Below are positions 1,489 through 37,778 of a stretch of DNA of 64,000 nt, in pieces. A program made the translations under genes and the position numbers. Source of the stretch: Acanthamoeba sp. SK_2022b (Eukaryota > Discosea > Longamoebia > Acanthamoebidae); NCBI GenBank assembly GCA_027943245.1, contig JANDJZ010000110.1, positions 1 through 64,000 on the forward strand. Direction: 5' to 3'. The notes beneath the pieces were generated by a model that saw only the letters and a list, made by a program, of their open reading frames with translations, had not been told where the DNA came from and searched no databases. How positions within the stretch are numbered: the first letter of the stretch is position 1; every line of letters starts with the position of its first letter.

Positions 1489-3144
1489 TCAGGCGAGGCC
1501 TCCGCCGCCGGCCTGCATCATCATCGGGGGCTGCTTCTGCGTGAGCTCGTCGTCGGAGCCGAGGTCGACCTTGTCAGCGTAGGACACGGTGGCGGGCTTG
1601 GCCCCGTCGATGTGGAGGCTGTCGAGCTGGACCGAGAGCTCGCCGTCGCTCCACCAACCGTGCACGGTCTCGCCGTCCTTGCTCACGTAGGTGCCCTTGC
1701 CGTGCGACTTGCCGTTCTTGCACTCGCCCTCGTAGTAGCTGCCCGATGCCCAAGTGTACTTGCCAAAGCCCTCCTGGCTGCCCTGGTGGAAGTCGCCTTC
1801 GTAGCTCTCGCCCTGGAGCAGATGAACCATTATCTTGTCAGCGCCTCGTCTCACCACTCTGGCATGCATGACCAAGGTCTATCGATCGTACCTCTGGCCA
1901 CGTGAACTTGCCCTTGCCGTGCTTCTTGCCGTGGCGCCACTCTCCCTCATACTTGCTTCCGTCCTTCCAGTAGTAGGTGCCTGTGGCGCATTCATTCACA
2001 GGGCCGATCAGCATCGGATGCGGCTCATCGCCTCTAGCCAGTCTCGTGAAGAAAACTGTACCCTTGCCATTGGGCTTTCCGTTGCGGTAGTCGCCCTCGT
2101 AGCGGTCTCCAAAGCTCCACACAAACACGCCCTTGCCGCAAGCTTTGGCGTCCTTCCACTCGCCCTCGTAGCGCGACCCACTAGAACAGGCAGAGCACAG
2201 AAGAGATGAGTCTTACTGGTGGCCGATACGAAAGCGGAGCGGAGATGCAGTCGTACCTGGGCCACGTCTTGGTCCCCTGTCCGTGCGCCTTGTTGGCCTT
2301 CCACTCGCCCGAGTGCTTGGTGCCGTTGCCAAAGTAGAGCGTGCCGCGGCCCTGCTTGACGTCCTCCTTCCACTCGCCCTCGTACTTGCACGGGCGGCCC
2401 ATGTCGTCGTACCAGGTGTAGGTGCCCTGGCCTTCCTTCTTGCCGTTCCTCCATTCGCCTTCGTACTTGCGGCCGTCGGGCCACGTCATCACGCCGGTGC
2501 CGTGGTACTTGCCTCGCTTCCACTCGCCCACGTAGAGCCGTCCCTGCGAGCCGGAAGATCAGTCGAGGTCAGTGCCTCTGTATCCTCTCTCACGCACACA
2601 AGAGCCAACAAGAACGCTATCCGTACGTCAGGCCAGCTGTAGGTGCCCTCTCCGTGGTACTTGCCGTTGCGCCACTCGCCCTCATATCGCCGGCCCTGTC
2701 GGGTCGTAAGTTCAGCATCGTCTCGCTGTGCAGACGAAAGAAAAAGACCCGAAGAAAGGCACATACATCAGCCCAGACGTAGACGCCCTGTCCGTGTCCC
2801 TTGTCGTTTCGCCATTCGCCCTTGTAGGTGTTGCCTACGGCCCAAGTGTAGGTGCCCTCGCCGTGAAACTTGCCGTCCTTGCACTCGCCATCGTAGCGAT
2901 CGCCCCTGGCATGGATCATGGTGCCACGACCGTGGGCCTGGCCTTCCTTCCACTTGCCCTCGTACCTGCAAACGAACTTTAGGGACCTGCACAGAGATAG
3001 CGGAGGTTCAAGTTACGTAGAGGTAGAGCCGTACCGAGTGCCATCCTTCCATCGCATGACGCCCCGGCCGTGCGGCTTGCCATTTCGGACCTTGCCTGAG
3101 TAGACACGTCCGTCGGGCATCTGGAGCTCCATATCGGCTTCCAT
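1489..3144 (-). CDS. MORN-repeat protein (about a dozen repeats)
   Basis: Start at the ATG at 3144 (MEADMELQMPDGRVYSG). Exons join cleanly in phase, for example the donor after GATGGCACTCG and the acceptor before GTACGAGGGC at 2969. Almost the whole protein is tandem MORN repeats of about 23 residues: YEGEWRNGKYHGEGTYSW, YKGEWRNDKGHGQGVYVW, YEGEWRHGKKHGKGKFTW, YEGDFHQGSQEGFGKYTW and others. One repeat carries an insertion (RLARGDEPHPMLIGPVNE). The C-terminus is non-repeat and ends in a Gln/Met/Gly-rich tail with stop at 1489. MORN arrays in other proteins bind phospholipid or act as rigid dimerising scaffolds at membranes, as in PIP5K and junctophilin. There is no kinase or other catalytic domain here, so a membrane or cortical scaffold is the likely role. 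Confidence 0.88.
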
Positions 3145-4170
3145 TTCACTGGAGTCGTGTGTGATTGTGTATGCGTGCAGCGTGGTGGTCGTGTAGTGCG
3201 AGTGGGATGGACAGTGGTGTAACTAACACTCAAGCCAACTCTTCAACAAAGAAGAACAAGAACCTATCCCTAGAAACCGGGGGCTAAACTTGCAAATCGT
3301 TTCGAGTAGAGAGAGAAGCAAAGAGTAGAGCAAGAGGTCGCTCGCTGTCGTTGATCGGGTCGCTGGAGGTTGGTGTAGTGCTTCGTTCAAACGGTCTGGT
3401 CTGATGAAGATTTAAACCTCAGTCCTTATGTTCTTGCGTGAGGTAGAGGCCACCAGGTCAAGCAAGCCTCGTCTTCCTGAGAAAATTGGGAGAGAGGCCA
3501 GCCTGCTCGCTGCCCATACGCTGGCATGCTCGGAGTTGCATGTCAAGAATTCCGGTTTTTACCCGGCACGTCAAGATCGAACGACGCCGGAGAGGAACGG
3601 GGCAGCATGTGGGCGGCAAGATGAGGAAAACTAGCGGAAAGTGGCCTGTAGGGAAACAGCCAGAATGAACTGGATCCGGTGGATCATGTTGGCCAATACG
3701 GTCGTGAGAGCTCGAGGGACGAGGCCAATCACTACACAGCATCTGAGTATCAGGCCAGCGCACAGGCTCACTTTCATCTTCGTGACTTTTCTGCCTCTTT
3801 TGCCACTTGCGCGGTGGCCAACTGTCCCTTTCGCTACCGCGAGGTTCGGGACTTTATCGGTGGGCGAGCATCCAACACGGCCCGAGCAGCTGCAGTAACG
3901 CGTGCCGCACGATCGAGGTTTCCTGCTCGGCTTGATTTGCGCCTTTGGACTCAAGGGCTGGGGCCTGGGTTCCTGCTCGAAAAGCGGTGAGGTCCTGCTA
4001 CCGATCTGAGCGCCTGTGCAATCCCACAACGTGGCCTGGTGCGTTTGGACGAGGCGCCCTCTGGCCTCCGAGAGCGGCGTCACGACGGCGTGCAGCGCTT
4101 GGCGGCGAAAAGGGCAACCCCAAAAAGAAATTCGAGTTTCCCCTCTTGCCAGAGCTCCCACCACCTCAAG
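3145..4170. other. Divergent intergenic region
   Basis: About 1 kb between the divergently transcribed MORN gene and the thioesterase gene, so it should hold both promoters. A 244-codon minus-strand frame (3631-4365) overlaps the first thioesterase exon and has no recognisable content, so it is not called. No repeat or structured RNA was noticed. Confidence 0.5.
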
Positions 4171-5020
4171 ATGAGCGCAACCCAGCACCAAGACTTTTAC
4201 TTCGTGGTGGATAAGATTGACGTGGTGCCTGAGCTCAAGGTATATTGCCAGTACACTACTTGCCTTATTTTTACATAGGCTCATGCGTCGTCCCCCCTCC
4301 CATTGTTGTTGCCCCGCAGGAAAGAGCGCAGCAGTACGCAAAGAACATACGCGACACCAATGCAAAGCACGTGGGCCAGATCTTGGGCATCCACTACACC
4401 AAGATCACCAAAGATTCAGTCGTAATGTTCCTGCAGCTCAACTTTCGAACAATCTGTTGCATTCATTCACCTACTTCTACCCCAAAACTGCAGGAAGCCA
4501 CCATGCCCGTGACAGATAGACACCACCAGGTCATCGGGCTTTTACACGGAGGCCTCAACGCCGCCCTCGTACGTCCACCCCCCTCCAGCCCACGTTAAGG
4601 TTCCCGGGTTTACGTCAAGTGGGCATACTCTGGTCTGGTAGGCCGAGGACGTGGCCAGCACGGCTGCTACTCTGCACGTCCCCGATATGGCCAAGCAGTT
4701 TGTCGTGGGCAGCAGCATCACGGCCAACCACATCCGCTCCGTCACCAGGTACCATCGCTCGGCCTGGCCACGCACACGTTCGCGCAATGACCGTCTTTGA
4801 CTCATCGCCGCCTCGTCTCGTCTCATCTATTCAACGCCCGTGCAGTGGGTTCGTGACTGCTACGGCGACGGTGCAGCACAAGGGCCGGAGGCAGCAGGTG
4901 TGGCAGGTCACCATCCGCAACGACAAGGGCGAGGTCGCGTGCGTGTCCTACTGCACGCTCGTCGTGCTCGACAAGAAGAGCGTGATCGGATCCGCGCAGA
5001 GGAGCAAGGCCAAGCTCTAA
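4171..5020 (+). CDS. PaaI/HGG-type hotdog-fold thioesterase
   Basis: Five exons join in phase from the ATG at 4171 (MSATQHQDFYFVVDKID) to the stop at 5020. Recognisable blocks: HVGQILGIHYTKITKDSV, then MPVTDRHHQVIGLLHGGL, then AEDVASTAATLHV, then QFVVGSSITANHIRSVTS, then FVTATATVQHKGRRQQVW and a final beta strand CVSYCTLVVLDK. The LLHGG motif followed by a helix with an acidic residue (AEDVAS) is the signature of the 4-hydroxybenzoyl-CoA thioesterase/PaaI group, which hydrolyses acyl-CoA esters as dimers or tetramers. The length (about 150-160 residues) is normal for a single hotdog domain. No targeting peptide is obvious. The natural acyl-CoA substrate cannot be told from sequence. Confidence 0.85.
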
Positions 5021-30215: not shown

Positions 30216-30716
30216 TCAAGCAACTGAGTTGCTGTGAAAGTTAGGAGGTGGCTCAAGTCCCTCCAACCTTCTGTTTGCCCAGTGCGCCAGGGTCATCCTC
30301 ACAAACAGGATGTTGACATGGTCACCACCAGGATTGCGCTTGTATATCTCGTTCTTGAGGAACACCTCAACAGCCACAATGTCATCTGGGACCCCATCAA
30401 GTGAATATGATGTAGAGGAAGTTCTCAATGTTGTTGAGCTCTTGCAGGGACGCATGCTCTTGAGGATCTTTATCAGGTTGTCAAAGTGAGTCCACTTGCC
30501 ACGGCCCAGGAGACCATCACAACCAACGCTGTTGGGGTCTACATCAGGTTCCTCCATAGAGCCAGAGATGTCTACCAGAAAGATGAGCTGAAGGTTGTGG
30601 AGGTCAGACTCCTTCTCATCAAGGCCACTCCTCAGGAGGTTAGCTTCCTGATTTATCTGAGCTGGCTGGGTGGTCTCATATTGGCTGGGGTGGAAGGGGA
30701 AGGCTGGCTGGTTCAT
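30216..30716 (-). CDS. von Willebrand factor A-type domain ORF
   Basis: The open frame contains LQLIFLVDISGSMEEPDVDP, a textbook MIDAS first motif (D-x-S-x-S) that binds a divalent metal in vWA domains. It is followed by GKWTHFDNLIKILKSMRP, the usual helix after the MIDAS strand. Later it reads DIVAVEVFLKNEIYKRNPGG and VNILFVRMTLA. The full fold (about 180 residues with Thr and Asp in later MIDAS loops) is not visible, so the domain may be truncated or spliced. It sits in CpG-depleted DNA and may belong to a silenced element rather than a host gene. The frame itself is intact for 166 codons. Confidence 0.5.
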   Translation of the reverse strand: MNQPAFPFHPSQYETTQPAQINQEANLLRSGLDEKESDLHNLQLIFLVDISGSMEEPDVDPNSVGCDGLLGRGKWTHFDNLIKILKSMRPCKSSTTLRTSSTSYSLDGVPDDIVAVEVFLKNEIYKRNPGGDHVNILFVRMTLAHWANRRLEGLEPPPNFHSNSVA

Positions 30717-31878
30717 GACAAAGGCATGTCTTGCTTGATGTGGTCGGTGGCAAGGGCCTGTTCAGTCATATAAGGGCCCTATCCATTAGCTGAATAACAG
30801 GGCCCTCGTCAACTTTCCCACTTTCCCAACCATTCTCAAGTTGCTTAGGCCTCCATTGTAACACATGCCAGATTTTAATTTGGTGGTTACCACCCAAATA
30901 GTTTATTAGGAGCAAACTTTATAAGATGGGAAAGAGATTAAATTTTCTTAACATGACCATAAATAAGTTCATTGTACAGATCTCCTGGTGCACTGGGGAG
31001 ACAGAGATGGCTGGCATAAACACAAGGTGTAGATTAGCTTGTGCTTCGGTTTGGCTGGCTTGAGAGCAGATGTGTGGATGTGTAATTAAGCTTAAAGCAG
31101 GCCAGCTTTGGAGTTCCATGAAGAGGACTGTAGTTATTACACTTCTCTTTTCAGGAGAAGCCAGAGTTGTATAGGCCTGCAGAAGGGACTTGTAGAACTG
31201 GTAGCCTGTTCCCTCACATAGATTAGAAAATGAGAATTCAAGTGTTGATGGGGCATACTTGGTTGAACGACTTGAGGAAAAAGAGGTGTCCAAGATGGGC
31301 TCCTATAAAGATGATGTACAGAGCTGGCAGGAACAGCACATATGTGTATGGAAAAACAGTGGGTTAGCTGGTTGCATATGTATATGCAATGGAGATAGGT
31401 GAAAACTGAATGTAAAACAAAGCAAAGCTGACAATATCACCACATATGCGTATGCAATGACAACGTACCATTAAGTTGAACTCCTCCTTCAGTCTTGGAG
31501 CACATATTTGGTAAAGAGCCATTAACAGAAGCTGTGCAAATGTGTGAGCAGAGAGATCAGCCCACCCATCTCAATGGGATTTGTCATGAGCACTCCCATA
31601 GGCGTGAAAGGTTGGCTGAGATGTTGCAGAGCACTACATAGAATACTGACTTTGATCTGTTGTCATTGGGTGTTCTATGACTGGTTTGTGATGCTCAGCT
31701 GATGATGACATAGATTGCCAATTTACCCCTGCCATTTCTGACTCTCTGTTGAAATAGACTTCAGAAGACACCACTGAGAGGACCCCAGCACAAACAGTGC
31801 TAGATGCAGTAGCGCAACTTAACATGCCACTGATCTTGAACTAGCAATGCTGCAGCAAACACTGCCTGGCCATGTTTG

Positions 31879-32275: not shown

Positions 32276-34734
32276 ATGCTGGAGCGCCTCTCCTTGACCA
32301 ACAATGCCGCCAAGTTCCCGCAGAAATGGTAAGCTGCCCAGGATTTTGCATTCGTGGCAAGGGCAGATCTCAAGACCACGTTGAATTCACAAGATGCAAA
32401 GGCCAACTACGGCCCCTTGTCGCTACTCGCTTTGATTGAATTCATGGCTCAGATTCTCTCATCCTGCCTTCAGTTCGATTCAGCTGAAGCTGGCCATCAA
32501 TCGACTACGGTTGCACCGCACGAAGAAGCTCGAGGAGGGCAACCGGCACAAGAAGGAGATCGCCGAGCTTCTCAAGGCCGACAAGGAACAGCTGGCACGC
32601 GTCAAGGTTGGCCGCCCTCTTTTCCTCGGCGTCAGTTGCGTGTAGGCTGATGTTGGGGGCGCGATCGCAGACGGTGTCGGTCATATTTGAGGACTACATG
32701 ATCGAGGCCCTCAACATGGTGGAGGTCTACTGCGAGACCATCATCTCGCGCGCCCAGCTCCTCTCCGCGCAGAAGTACTTCCGTGCCTCTGTCGTGCTGC
32801 CTGGCGGTGGCGTGACGCCGTGTTGTCCATGCGAGTCCACGTGTGCTTCGTTTCGTTGGCCTTCTAACGCTGTTTGGCGACGTCAGGTCCTGTCCTCCCG
32901 AGCTGACGGACGCCGTCTGCAACATCGTCTACTGCGCGCCCTACCTGGCCATGGAGGAGCTGACCAAGGTTGAACCTTGCTCACCATATGGCATTTTTTT
33001 AATTATTTAATTAATTTATATTTTTTTATTATTATTTGATTGATTTATCGATTGATTTATTTATGAATTGTCAGTTATCTCATTTTATGCTGCACACACA
33101 GTTGCGAAAGGCCTTCATCAAGCGCTACGGGAAGGACTTCCCGATCGACTGCGAACGCAACGGGCGCATCAACGAGAAGCTCATCGCGCGGCTGCAGCAC
33201 AACCCGCCTGACGAGGCCCTCATCAACTACTACCTCTCGGCCATCGCCAAGAAGCACAACATCGACTGGGAAGTGCCCGTACGTTCTTCGTCATGCTTTT
33301 TAAATTCATAAATTTGATTTGATTTAATTATTTATATTTAAACATGCGTGTGTGCAGGTGGGCACCCTCCCGACGTCCCTTCTCACGCCGCAGCCGAGCG
33401 CGCAGCCCCAGCAGCCGCAGTTCCCCACCTACGGCTACCCGCCCATGGGCGGCCAGCCCCAGCAGCCGCAGCCTCAGCAGCCGCCGCAGCACCAGCCGAC
33501 CTCGCCACCGCAGTCCCACCACGCCCCGCCCTCGGCCGTCTACTACTCTGGGCCCGGCCACTTCCCCGCCTCGCCCTCCTTCCCTCCCGCCCACTTCACC
33601 CAAGGTGCGCCCCTCAGCGAGTCCAGGGGTGGTTGTATGATGACGTCACACGATGTCGACACAATATCTCGAGCCGACCCTCACGAGCGTGTGTGTGGTG
33701 TTGTTGTTGTTTGTAGGCGGAGTGCAGCAGGGTGGCATGTCGCAGGGCACGAGCGCCATACCGAGCTCGGATTCGGTGGACGACCTCGAGGCCCGGTTCC
33801 GCGCGCTGTCGGGCCAGTCGGGCGGCGGCGGAGGCGGCAGCCCCAACCTGCAGTCGCTCCAGCACGGCGCCGTCGTACAGAACTCGCAGCCCATGCCCGA
33901 CTTCCTCGACGAGCTCGACTCGATGTGGAAGCAGTCGGCCTCGTCGGCGCGCGCCGTCGCGCCGGCCCTCGCCCGCGTGGACGCGGCCTTGGCCGAGCTC
34001 GACGCCTCGGCCCGGTCGGTCAGCGCCGGCAAGCTGCTCCCGCGCAGCGCCGTGCCGCTGAGCAACGGTAAGCTCTGCCCCCCCCCCACTCGCATGGCCA
34101 GCCGCGCGTGGCCGTGGCTTAGCAACGTGTTCGTGGCCGTGGCCGTGTGACGACAGATGAGGCGGCGGCAGCGCTGGCCGCGGCGGTGGAGGCCCTGCGG
34201 CAGGCCACGTCCGGGCTGTCCTCGGAGGCGGCCAACGGGCGGCCGATCGGCGACCGCGCCCTGGCGCTCGCGCAGGCCCTCGCCCGCCTGTCCGACCTTT
34301 CGGTCGAGGCCGCGGCTCAGCTTCAAGGCGCCGACGGCCAGGTACGCGCCCGCTCATCACCACAGCACGCATGGCTCCTCACTCACTTCTCCGTGTGCGC
34401 GCGTGCGTGTGCGTGTGCGGTCAAGGCAACCGCGCTGCGCGCGATTCGGGCGTCGCTGGAGTCGGGCCGCGTGCTGTTGGCTGCGGCTGAGGCCACGGGG
34501 GCCTCCCCGCAAGACCCCTCCCTGCGCGACCGGCTGGGCCAGGCCTCGGCCGGCGTCGCCGCCGCGGTCAAGTCCCTCTTTGGCATCCACCAACAGGCCA
34601 GACAGCAGCAGCAGCAGCAACCGACCCAGCAGGCCTCCACATCATCAACTGGTATCATGCACGCACGCACGCACGCACGCACGTTGCACGCAAGGAATGG
34701 CTCACACGTGAGTTGCCTTGTGTGTGTGTGTGTG

Positions 34735-34793
<59 letters not shown>

Positions 34794-35734
34794 GTGGTGA
34801 ATGATGGCAGCAGACGAGGCGGCGCGTGCGGAGATCACGAAGGCGGCGCAGGCGCTCATCGCGGCGGCCACGCAGCTGCACGAGGCCTCGACCAACGGTG
34901 GGGCGCGACGCAAGCCGCAGGGCCCGAAGACCGGCGGGTGGGAGGACCTGGCCTACGACCTGGGCGGCCTGCCGCCGGGTCTCATCCCGCCCGCGCAGCA
35001 CATCGCCGGCGCGGCGGGCGCCCTGCTGGCCGCTGCGGCTGACTGCCAGGCCGAGCGCGTGCAGGCCATGTCCGCGGGACCCCACTACCACTCGGACCCC
35101 GCGTGGACCAACGGCCTCGTGTCGGCCAGCCGGGCCGTCACCTCCACCACCTTCCACGCCCTCAGGTACGACCCAAAAATCAAAATAATAATATAATAAT
35201 ATTGAAATTAATTTTCAAAAAATAAAAACAGGCTGGCGGTGGGCGTGGGCAAGGGCGAGGTCGACGTGGCGACGCTGCAGGCGGCGCTCCGTGCGTCATC
35301 GGGAGCCAGCGCGCAGCTGGTGGCGGCCTCGCGCGCCAAGGCCGACCCCTCGAGCCGCGCTCTGCAGGGCCTGCTCAACGCCTCGCAGAGCCTCAATCAG
35401 GCAACCGCCCGGCTGGTGGAGGCAGCCACATCGCTCGGCCCCGCCACCAGTTCCCCCCAGTCGCGGGCATCGTCCGCCGACCGCGCTACACTCACGCAGA
35501 CCCAGGCCGAGGAGATAGAACAACGCGTGCGCAACCTTTTCTTTTTATTTATATTCTTGATTTATTTGATTGATTATTTTTTGGGTTGTGCTCTTCCGAA
35601 GAGAACACTCACACTGCTGGTGCACGTAGGCGCGTATCCTGCGCTTGGAAGCCGAGCTGGACAAAGCGCGCGGAGATCTTCACGGCATGCGCAAGCAACG
35701 CTACGAGGGCGGGGCTGGCGGCCGACCCTCCTAG
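32276..35734 (+). CDS. IST1 (ESCRT-III-like) domain fused to I/LWEQ (THATCH) actin-binding domain
   Basis: Exons join in phase throughout. The N-terminal IST1 domain reads LKLAINRLRLHRTKKLEEGN, FEDYMIEALNMVEVYCETII, PPELTDAVCNIVYCAPYLAM, LRKAFIKRYGKDFPIDCERN and DEALINYYLSAIAKKHNIDW. IST1 folds like ESCRT-III and regulates Vps4 at endosomes. A Pro/Gln linker (33,360-33,610) follows, then DELDSMWKQSASSARAV and Ala-rich helical bundles. From about 34,800 the C-terminus is an I/LWEQ module: EITKAAQALIAAATQLHEAS, WTNGLVSASRAVTSTT, QLVAASRAKADPSSRALQGL, NASQSLNQATARLVEAA and the closing helix ARILRLEAELDKARGDLHGM. This module binds F-actin in talin and HIP1/Sla2. About 800 residues, stop at 35734. 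The start is the first in-frame ATG after a boundary with CpG-poor DNA, so an upstream exon is possible. Confidence 0.85.
34719..34797. repeat. (GT)n microsatellite, intronic
   Basis: Nearly uninterrupted GT run in the intron just before the exon starting the I/LWEQ module. Confidence 0.95.
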
Positions 35735-35774: not shown

Positions 35775-36952
35775 TCAGCGACTGGAACATGTTTTGTGGG
35801 GCGACACCCCAGACAACAAATGGCAGGTGGTTGTACAGCATTTCATCACGCTGTCCTGGATCTTCAGTGCCAGCAGCCTCGCCTTCTCCGCGCGTAGCTC
35901 CTCCAACTGCCATAAAAGGTGCACAACGGATGAGTCTAATCTCAACCTGAAATGGTTAAAAAACAAGCCTAAAAATAAAATACAGAAATGGAAACAATAT
36001 CAATAAAAGAAAAGGGAAAAAAAGGAATTAGAACATAAGGGGCATACGCGTCTTTTGTTTTGTTCTTGGCGATCGCGAAGGAGGCGCAGCAGAGGCTGCG
36101 ACCCGTACTCGAGCAGCCGCGCCACCGACTTTTGGTGGACCGCGCCGCTGAAGACCTCCATGAGCGGATGCACACGGCCTCTGTCCAGTTGTGGCACGTT
36201 AGCCTAGGCCGCACACGACACACGACACACTACGAGAACACACGGCGTGCAGAGACGTGGCTCACCCGGGCGGAGGAGCGATGGCTTCATTGTAGGAGGC
36301 GCGGTCTTCTTGGCTGATGATCTGCTGAAGCTCGACCAGCTTGATGAGCGTGTTGGGCGCGTTGGCGTCGGGCGGCACCACCGTCAGCGGGATGTTGACC
36401 TGCTCGTAGCCCGTGGGGGACTGGCCGGTCCGTCGCTCGTCCGTGCTGGCCAGCTGACTGAGGTCGAGCGACTGGAAAGCGATCACTTGGATTCGCCCGT
36501 TCTGTGCGCCGCACACATCATCGCTCGTGAGATAACGCAACACGCACACGCACACGTGTGATGTGTTGCGGTGTGTGGCACACGACACACAACACAGATG
36601 CGAGTGGAGGAGGAGGAGGGCACCATTTCGGCGTCTGTGTTGAAGCAGGAGAAGATGAGCCCGATGAAGCCGCTGTCCATCATCTGGTACAGGGCTTGCG
36701 TCCGCACGTCTGACACGAACAGAGCATTAAATAAACTGTCGTGTCGCCATGATAGTTAAAAAGCGACTTAAAGAATTTAAACAAATATAAAATAAAATGC
36801 CATCGTGTGCACGCATGCACACGAGAGGAGAAGAATAAGAAAGAGGTTGCGCACCAAACGTGAAGGAGGATGCACGGTGATGTGGGTGCGAGTGGTACCA
36901 GCAGCCCAACCCGAATCTGCTTGCCCAAACTGCCGAGAGACGCTGTGTGGAG

Positions 36953-37047
<95 letters not shown>

Positions 37048-37523
37048 TGCGCATGCACACACAGATGCGCATGCACACCAATGCACACAGGTGCGTCAGG
37101 TAGTGAGCTCACCTGGAACGTACGCTCCGCAGCATTGGCGGGGAGAGGGGACGTGCCTCGGCCTCGGCTGTGGCGGCAGTGAGCTGTGCAGGCTCGATTT
37201 CCACTCGGTCCTTTCGCTTGTCCGACCTGCTCCAAAATAAATATTTACACACTCATATTATAAAAATAAAAAATACTTGTGTTTGGCTTACGCACCGGGT
37301 GAGCACGGACACATGCGAGACGAAGGCGATGGCGCCTCGTGCTGATTTCTTGTCGGGAGGGTGGAATCGCGTGAGCCAGATATAAGCAACGCGCAAGTCG
37401 AGGGGGTACCTTGATGTCGCCTAGAAGGAGACCCATGACCTCCTCTTTTTCAGTGGTCAAGGCATGAGACATGCACACCAGAAACGCTTCTGTGCTTACG
37501 AACACGCCCCTCAACCCGCTCAT
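35775..37523 (-). CDS. BRCC3: BRCC36-like JAMM/MPN+ deubiquitinase, frame anomalies at the catalytic motif
   Basis: Start at 37523: MSGLRGVFVSTEAFLVCMSH, EKEEVMGLLLGDIK with the conserved catalytic Glu of MPN+ domains. Next come SDKRKDRVEIEPAQLTAAT, WYHSHPH (the H-x-H of JAMM), DVRTQALYQMMDSGFIGLIF, IQVIAFQSLDLSQ and NIPLTVVPPDANAPNTLIKL. A C-terminal coiled coil follows (LLRDRQEQNK, LEELRAEKARLLALK) and the stop is at 35775. These match BRCC36, the K63-specific deubiquitinase of the BRISC and BRCA1-A complexes. Around 36,870-36,930 the conserved pieces (LGKQIRVG, WYHSHPH, ITVHP) lie in three successive frames. In the splice-consistent frame the residues after HSHPH are HRASSFTFD, losing the canonical Ser. 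This may be an assembly indel or real decay. The 3' end is 41 bp from that of the convergent IST1 gene. Confidence 0.8.
36955..37048. repeat. (AC)n followed by (AG)n, intronic
   Basis: An AC run of about 68 bp directly continued by an AG run of about 25 bp, inside the BRCC36-like gene just before the JAMM exon. Confidence 0.95.
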
Positions 37524-37778
37524 CTTATTGTATGCTTGCGCCTAATCTTGTGTTTTATTTCTTGGTTTGGTGCCTTGTTTTCTGTTGGGGAATGCTAAAC
37601 ATGATATCTCCTGGACTGTCGACACTCTAAGCACGCCGGCAGAAATTCGAGTAGCCTCTTTTCTCTTTCGTTTTTGTATGACACGTCATTCCTTTTTCAG
37701 AGTTTGCGGCAAAAAGGAAATACATACAAAATTGAGAGGAGTAATGAAAGTTACTGGTTTATGTGCAATGATACGTGA

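Follow-up and report, generated by a model that had tools for sequence, protein, structure and literature searches.

An Acanthamoeba gene joining an IST1 core to a talin-type actin-binding tail

The window analysed here, positions 1 to 64,000 of contig JANDJZ010000110.1 from Acanthamoeba sp. SK_2022b (contig C87 of a 44.9 Mb genome), carries on its plus strand a gene (32276-35734) whose 770-residue product places in one chain an IST1 core, a linker bearing a motif that resembles the MIT-interacting motif (MIM), a rod bundle of talin type and a THATCH domain. Filactin is an earlier known case of IST1 linked to the actin system; what is new is the union of IST1 with a talin-type tail. Public databases already list the fusion protein, Pfam domains included, and no description of an IST1-talin-tail fusion was found in the open-licence literature, in line with the original prediction, made from the sequence of the window, that no IST1-THATCH fusion had been described. 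There are many membrane sites at which endosomal sorting complex required for transport III (ESCRT-III) encounters actin; to our knowledge, no protein is recognized as an ESCRT-III subunit with an F-actin-binding tail in the same chain. The chain is conserved in relatives and could serve as an isolated test case for whether actin pull triggers scission by IST1-CHMP1.

One gene encodes both halves of the fusion

Four families were reported when the 770-residue product was scanned against Pfam at E 0.01. The head (residues 21-179; 32481..33266, exons 2-5) matches Ist1, the ESCRT-III-like core of IST1, at E 1.6e-44 and 152.1 bits against a curated cut-off of 33.6, with positions 3-164 of the 164-position profile covered. 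By the fold test it has the IST1 core fold, and it matched human IST1 when solved structures were searched by sequence (best E 6.8e-20). A Pro/Gln/Gly-rich linker follows (residues 180-285, 33267..33775), holding a 112-bp intron at 33605-33716. Beyond it lie a talin-type rod bundle (Talin_IBS2B; residues 387-497, 34168..34584; E 6.2e-7, 29.8 bits against a cut-off of 27), the single bundle above cut-off in the window protein, and an I_LWEQ domain (THATCH, PF01608) with a C-terminal dimerisation-type helix (residues 612-762, 35086..35707; E 1.9e-29). The latter match reaches 103.1 bits against a cut-off of 27.5 and spans the complete profile (1-151 of 151). The fourth family, TLN1-like_RS, matched under its cut-off (E 0.0092); FERM, ANTH and actin families were not among the four.

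In the sequence comparison with solved structures, the tail matched the talin-1 R13-DD of the F-actin complex 9az6 (E 9e-11) and Sla2 (8.1e-10). The conserved Trp block and the end helix are seen in the alignments, and the stretch SRAKAD stands opposite CKVKAD of talin-1. From these alignments the THATCH is predicted to be of the F-actin-binding type, with a dimerisation-type end helix. Both domains first read from the sequence alone, Ist1 and I_LWEQ, were thus recovered on the spliced product. The tail was correctly described as a THATCH of the actin-binding type; it is not, however, the lone module envisaged, but a rod bundle plus THATCH, that is, a shortened talin-type tail.

The spliced model comprises 12 exons and 11 GT-AG introns, running from an ATG at 32276 to a TAG at 35734 (exons 1-4, 32276-32328, 32474-32606, 32671-32774 and 32887-32968; exons 5-8, 33102-33278, 33358-33604, 33717-34067 and 34157-34341; exons 9-12, 34426-34651, 34811-35165, 35232-35526 and 35630-35734). 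Phases agree at all 11 junctions, so that the uninterrupted in-phase chain of the original prediction holds, as do its two gene ends, exact to the base. Of the junction it placed at 33,613/33,717, within the linker, the acceptor (33717) stands and the donor moves to 33604|33605; a second junction, given as 34,652/34,810, is in fact 34651|34811. The model is backed by the contrast in G+C content between exons (0.706; 0.895 at third codon positions) and introns (0.476), and by exon ends that match homologues. Retention would bring in an in-frame stop for 7 of the 11 introns. Since introns 3, 6, 8 and 11 have none, stops by themselves are no proof of the exon model. Intron 6, the linker intron, is stop-free in frame on retention, yet its 112 bp would cause a frameshift. 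An alternative exon 3 donor 45 bases downstream, giving 785 residues, was ruled out by the homologues, which place the end of exon 3 at 32774. The first of the homologue searches and the comparison with solved structures were run with the 785-residue version, and the Pfam scan was redone on 770 residues.

The same domain order was found in five further proteins. P0001, the closest named relative (84% identity over 86% of the query), is ACA1_197490 of Acanthamoeba castellanii Neff; P0002 is a metagenome protein (JGI); P0003 and P0004 are EukProt entries with Trinity transcript names; and P0016 is a EukProt MMETSP record naming Stereomyxa, N-terminally incomplete with its start missing. Identity among these relatives reaches down to 37% over 64% of the query. 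With both halves kept in all five, Neff and Stereomyxa included, and the chain in phase across the linker, the single gene originally claimed, and the occurrence of its domain order elsewhere, are borne out. Ist1 and I_LWEQ occurred together in 3/3, 2/11 and 4/6 rows of the protein-search listings (3, 11 and 6 proteins). The remaining rows were talin or talin-like pieces (P0005-P0008), insect HIP1 (P0010-P0013), a choanoflagellate IST1-methyltransferase prediction (P0009) and two filactin-like proteins (P0014, P0015). Each search overlooked some known members (the first P0004 and P0016; the second P0001, P0002 and P0016; the third P0002), and the distribution is therefore a lower bound. The rod bundle and the end helix are conserved among the relatives, and P0003, P0004 and P0016 have added length between rod and THATCH. 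As annotated, P0001 is without most of the I/LWEQ core, which is present in the window protein, P0002, P0003, P0004 and P0016; the gap is probably an annotation error.

Linker motifs and the origins of head and tail

Directly after the linker proper lies the MIM-like motif VDDLEARFRAL (residues 286-296, 33776..33808), with the spacing of the MIT-binding helix of human IST1. Its V286, L289, F293 and L296 are spaced identically to F352, L355, F359 and L362 in human IST1, which are reported to sit in the MIT groove of spastin (PMC9477494). The pattern D-x-L-x-x-R-[FLM]-x-[AE]-L occurs in 6/6 fusion proteins and in 0/2 filactin-like ones (P0014, P0015), and outside the motifs the linker is scarcely alignable among the fusion proteins. 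Shuffling each of the six linkers 20,000 times produced 0 or 1 occurrences of this pattern, which had been defined after viewing the sequences. In the predicted model of P0002, the stretch corresponding to the linker has predicted local distance difference test (pLDDT) values below 50, as does the helix, 239-249, that coincides with the motif. Comparison with PDB paired the Stereomyxa version of the motif with a single peptide, yeast Vps2 (Did4) in 2v6x, at a non-significant E of 1.3, and the window version with no chain; the matches of a longer piece of the window linker were judged unrelated and set aside. We regard the MIM-like motif as a good lead, not as proof. An acidic motif, DELDSMW (residues 330-336, 33908..33928), lies between the MIM-like motif and the rod, and the pattern DE[LV]D-x-[LM]W is found in 6/6 fusion proteins.

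A tree of IST1 heads (11 rows) splits the fusions together with P0014 and P0015 from three canonical IST1s at 100/99. The canonical rows are human IST1, a choanoflagellate IST1 and the second IST1 of this genome (C501), joined from exon pieces by eye; plant IST1, fungal IST1 and Dictyostelium filactin are not in the tree, which carries a long-branch warning for CAN_acanth and CAN_rosetta. At 52-54% identity, the window head is closer to the heads of P0014 and P0015 than to the three canonical ones (33-36%). As a group of their own, the fusion rows are supported at only 69/78 (76% of 200 bootstraps), so that the filactin-like heads may branch inside or beside them.

P0014 and P0015, both from metagenomes, consist of an IST1 head, cold-shock/OB-type repeats and a full actin domain; from this architecture, rather than from an alignment to the Dictyostelium protein, we infer that they are filactin-like. 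In its published description, Dictyostelium filactin combines an actin-like domain with an IST1-like one and encounters spastin at the mitotic spindle (PMC8932920). Its location is given as intranuclear actin rods in a paper that calls it known only from Dictyostelium (PMC5225641), and filactin is reported in Physarum (PMC4758236). The available parts of the filactin literature make no mention of the cold-shock/OB-type repeats. Like filactin, the fusion joins an IST1-type domain to the actin system in one chain, and its head clusters with those of P0014 and P0015. In filactin, however, the other half is actin itself (after the cold-shock/OB-type repeats in P0014), with no talin rod or THATCH, and P0014 and P0015 do not have the MIM-like pattern. 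The fusion thus looks like a second way in which amoebae wired IST1 to actin, beside filactin; together, the two suggest that one class of amoebal IST1 head was linked to actin on more than one occasion. No filactin was seen in this genome in a search with P0014 (60 candidates, 43 scored), which also failed to list the C501 IST1 and is thus insensitive to IST1 heads. Among the 47 matches listed, the sole match in the IST1 part was the window gene (33102-33266), the rest falling in the actin part.

With canonical IST1 (human; C501) the fusion shares the IST1 core and, after a long linker, a putative MIM-type helix, but C501 ends after the MIM whereas the fusion continues into the talin-type tail. 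The C501 gene (G000:C501, L013, minus strand, about 3295-4857) is separate; it ends in the MIM-type helix FDELSARFEALKRNL, followed by a stop. In PDB, this terminal motif is matched best by IST1 MIM peptides, which take the first three places (E 0.051 to 0.16).

As to the tail, its best Foldseek match is Sla2 (E 1.0e-6), and its E-values by sequence for talin-1 and Sla2 are close; fold and sequence by themselves therefore do not discriminate talin from Sla2/HIP1. In a THATCH tree of 15 rows (from which P0006, P0012 and the incompletely annotated P0001 were excluded), the fusion tail clusters with the genome's own talin (C242) and not with insect HIP1, three rows of which separate at 100/100. 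A HIP1 origin of the tail was rejected on this tree, subject to the tree's caveats. On it the talin rows are spread over more than one group (3 changes), and the HIP rows require 2. C766, on a long branch, sits within the fusion side, and the C87:127.9 kb row, whose HIP-like label is a reading of exons, falls apart from the insect HIP1 rows. A search of the genome for ANTH gave no match, but its controls were likewise silent and it says nothing on a HIP1 homologue.

As in the C242 talin, a Talin_IBS2B-type rod bundle precedes I/LWEQ and the end helix; the fusion differs from talin in having no FERM match, in carrying IST1 and the linker there, and in its much shorter rod. With HIP1/Sla2 it has in common a C-terminal THATCH of similar fold, but it has no ANTH match and its THATCH lies outside the group of the three insect HIP1 rows. 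Two other loci of this genome carry related tails. At G000:C530 (L016:114-2573, minus strand), the open frame of a talin-type tail (IBS2B plus I_LWEQ) runs on into a long Pro-rich extension. At G000:C766 (L017, minus strand, about 2054-4534), I/LWEQ exons lie downstream of an open frame with weak PH matches, below cut-off; this locus may encode another unusual I/LWEQ protein, or two genes.

Possible coupling of actin pull to ESCRT-III

Going beyond the domain order itself, we propose, at a little under an even chance, that the fusion is a force-coupled IST1 that passes actin pull to ESCRT-III-coated necks. The IST1 head would become part of the CHMP1-type ESCRT-III coat that covers a membrane tube or neck, and the MIM-like helix would bring in ATPases with a MIT domain, either VPS4 or a spastin-like enzyme. 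Dimerised via its end helix, the THATCH tail would hold F-actin by way of the short talin-type rod, which would act as a mechanical spacer. Actin flow could then pull on the coated membrane, the tether either supplying a scission trigger or holding ESCRT-III at actin-rich membrane. Human CHMP1B-IST1 coats are reported to constrict tubes, coating alone being insufficient for severing, which needs extensional force (PMC9303997), and amoebal talin-A to transmit pN forces (PMC12686525). Given these reports, a chain with an IST1 head and a talin-type tail would be well placed to transfer the pull of actin to an ESCRT-III coat. The original prediction likewise proposed a tie between ESCRT-III-type remodelling and cortical actin, with a possible role in macropinosomes, the contractile vacuole or phagosomes. 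The genome holds MIT-domain loci and a VPS4-type locus, C158, where MIT and Vps4_C lie within about 1.9 kb. One point weighs against the proposal: large IST1 structures in human cells are described as ringing integrin clusters without actin (PMC10200693). A wider version, which we consider doubtful, is that of an ESCRT-III subunit that carries an actin clutch of its own, in which actin flow borne by the talin-type rod would supply the pulling force for cutting, together with an IST1 head cassette that has been actin-coupled at least twice (filactin; talin tail).

The fusion could instead be a passive adaptor, its head docking on ESCRT-III or other partners and its tail positioning the complex at actin-rich membrane, with neither force nor scission. 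The rod is short, one bundle being above cut-off in the window protein, which leaves little mechanical travel, and the long linker has very low confidence in the predicted model. Conservation of the rod bundle and end helix in relatives argues the other way, and the extra length between rod and THATCH in P0003, P0004 and P0016 fits load-bearing at least equally; on balance, we think this role unlikely, though not strongly so. Less probable still is an actin regulator that has left ESCRT and, like filactin, works in actin rods or the nucleus, its IST1 head being used for polymerisation or dimerisation. Such a role is favoured by the head tree, where two filactin-like heads cluster with that of the fusion to the exclusion of the three canonical IST1s (100/99), and by the rod location of Dictyostelium filactin (PMC5225641); the fusion, however, retains the MIM-like motif, a pattern missing from P0014 and P0015, and filactin itself meets spastin at the spindle (PMC8932920). 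Finally, an internal Met early in exon 7, close to the start of the second half, and the stop-free linker intron could point to an adjacent IST1 gene and talin-like gene joined by annotation, but the splice chain is in phase throughout, linker motifs are conserved on either side of the supposed break, and the same order in five other proteins, two with Trinity names, makes such a merger very unlikely indeed, to the point that we give it almost no weight.

Other features of the window

A convergent gene on the minus strand (36262-37541) matches JAB/MPN and, weakly, BRCC36_C, in each case below cut-off, and probably encodes a BRCC36-type deubiquitinase. Also on the minus strand, an open frame at 30216-30761, with no Pfam match, contains the stretch FLVDISGSM, which is reminiscent of a von Willebrand A-type metal site.
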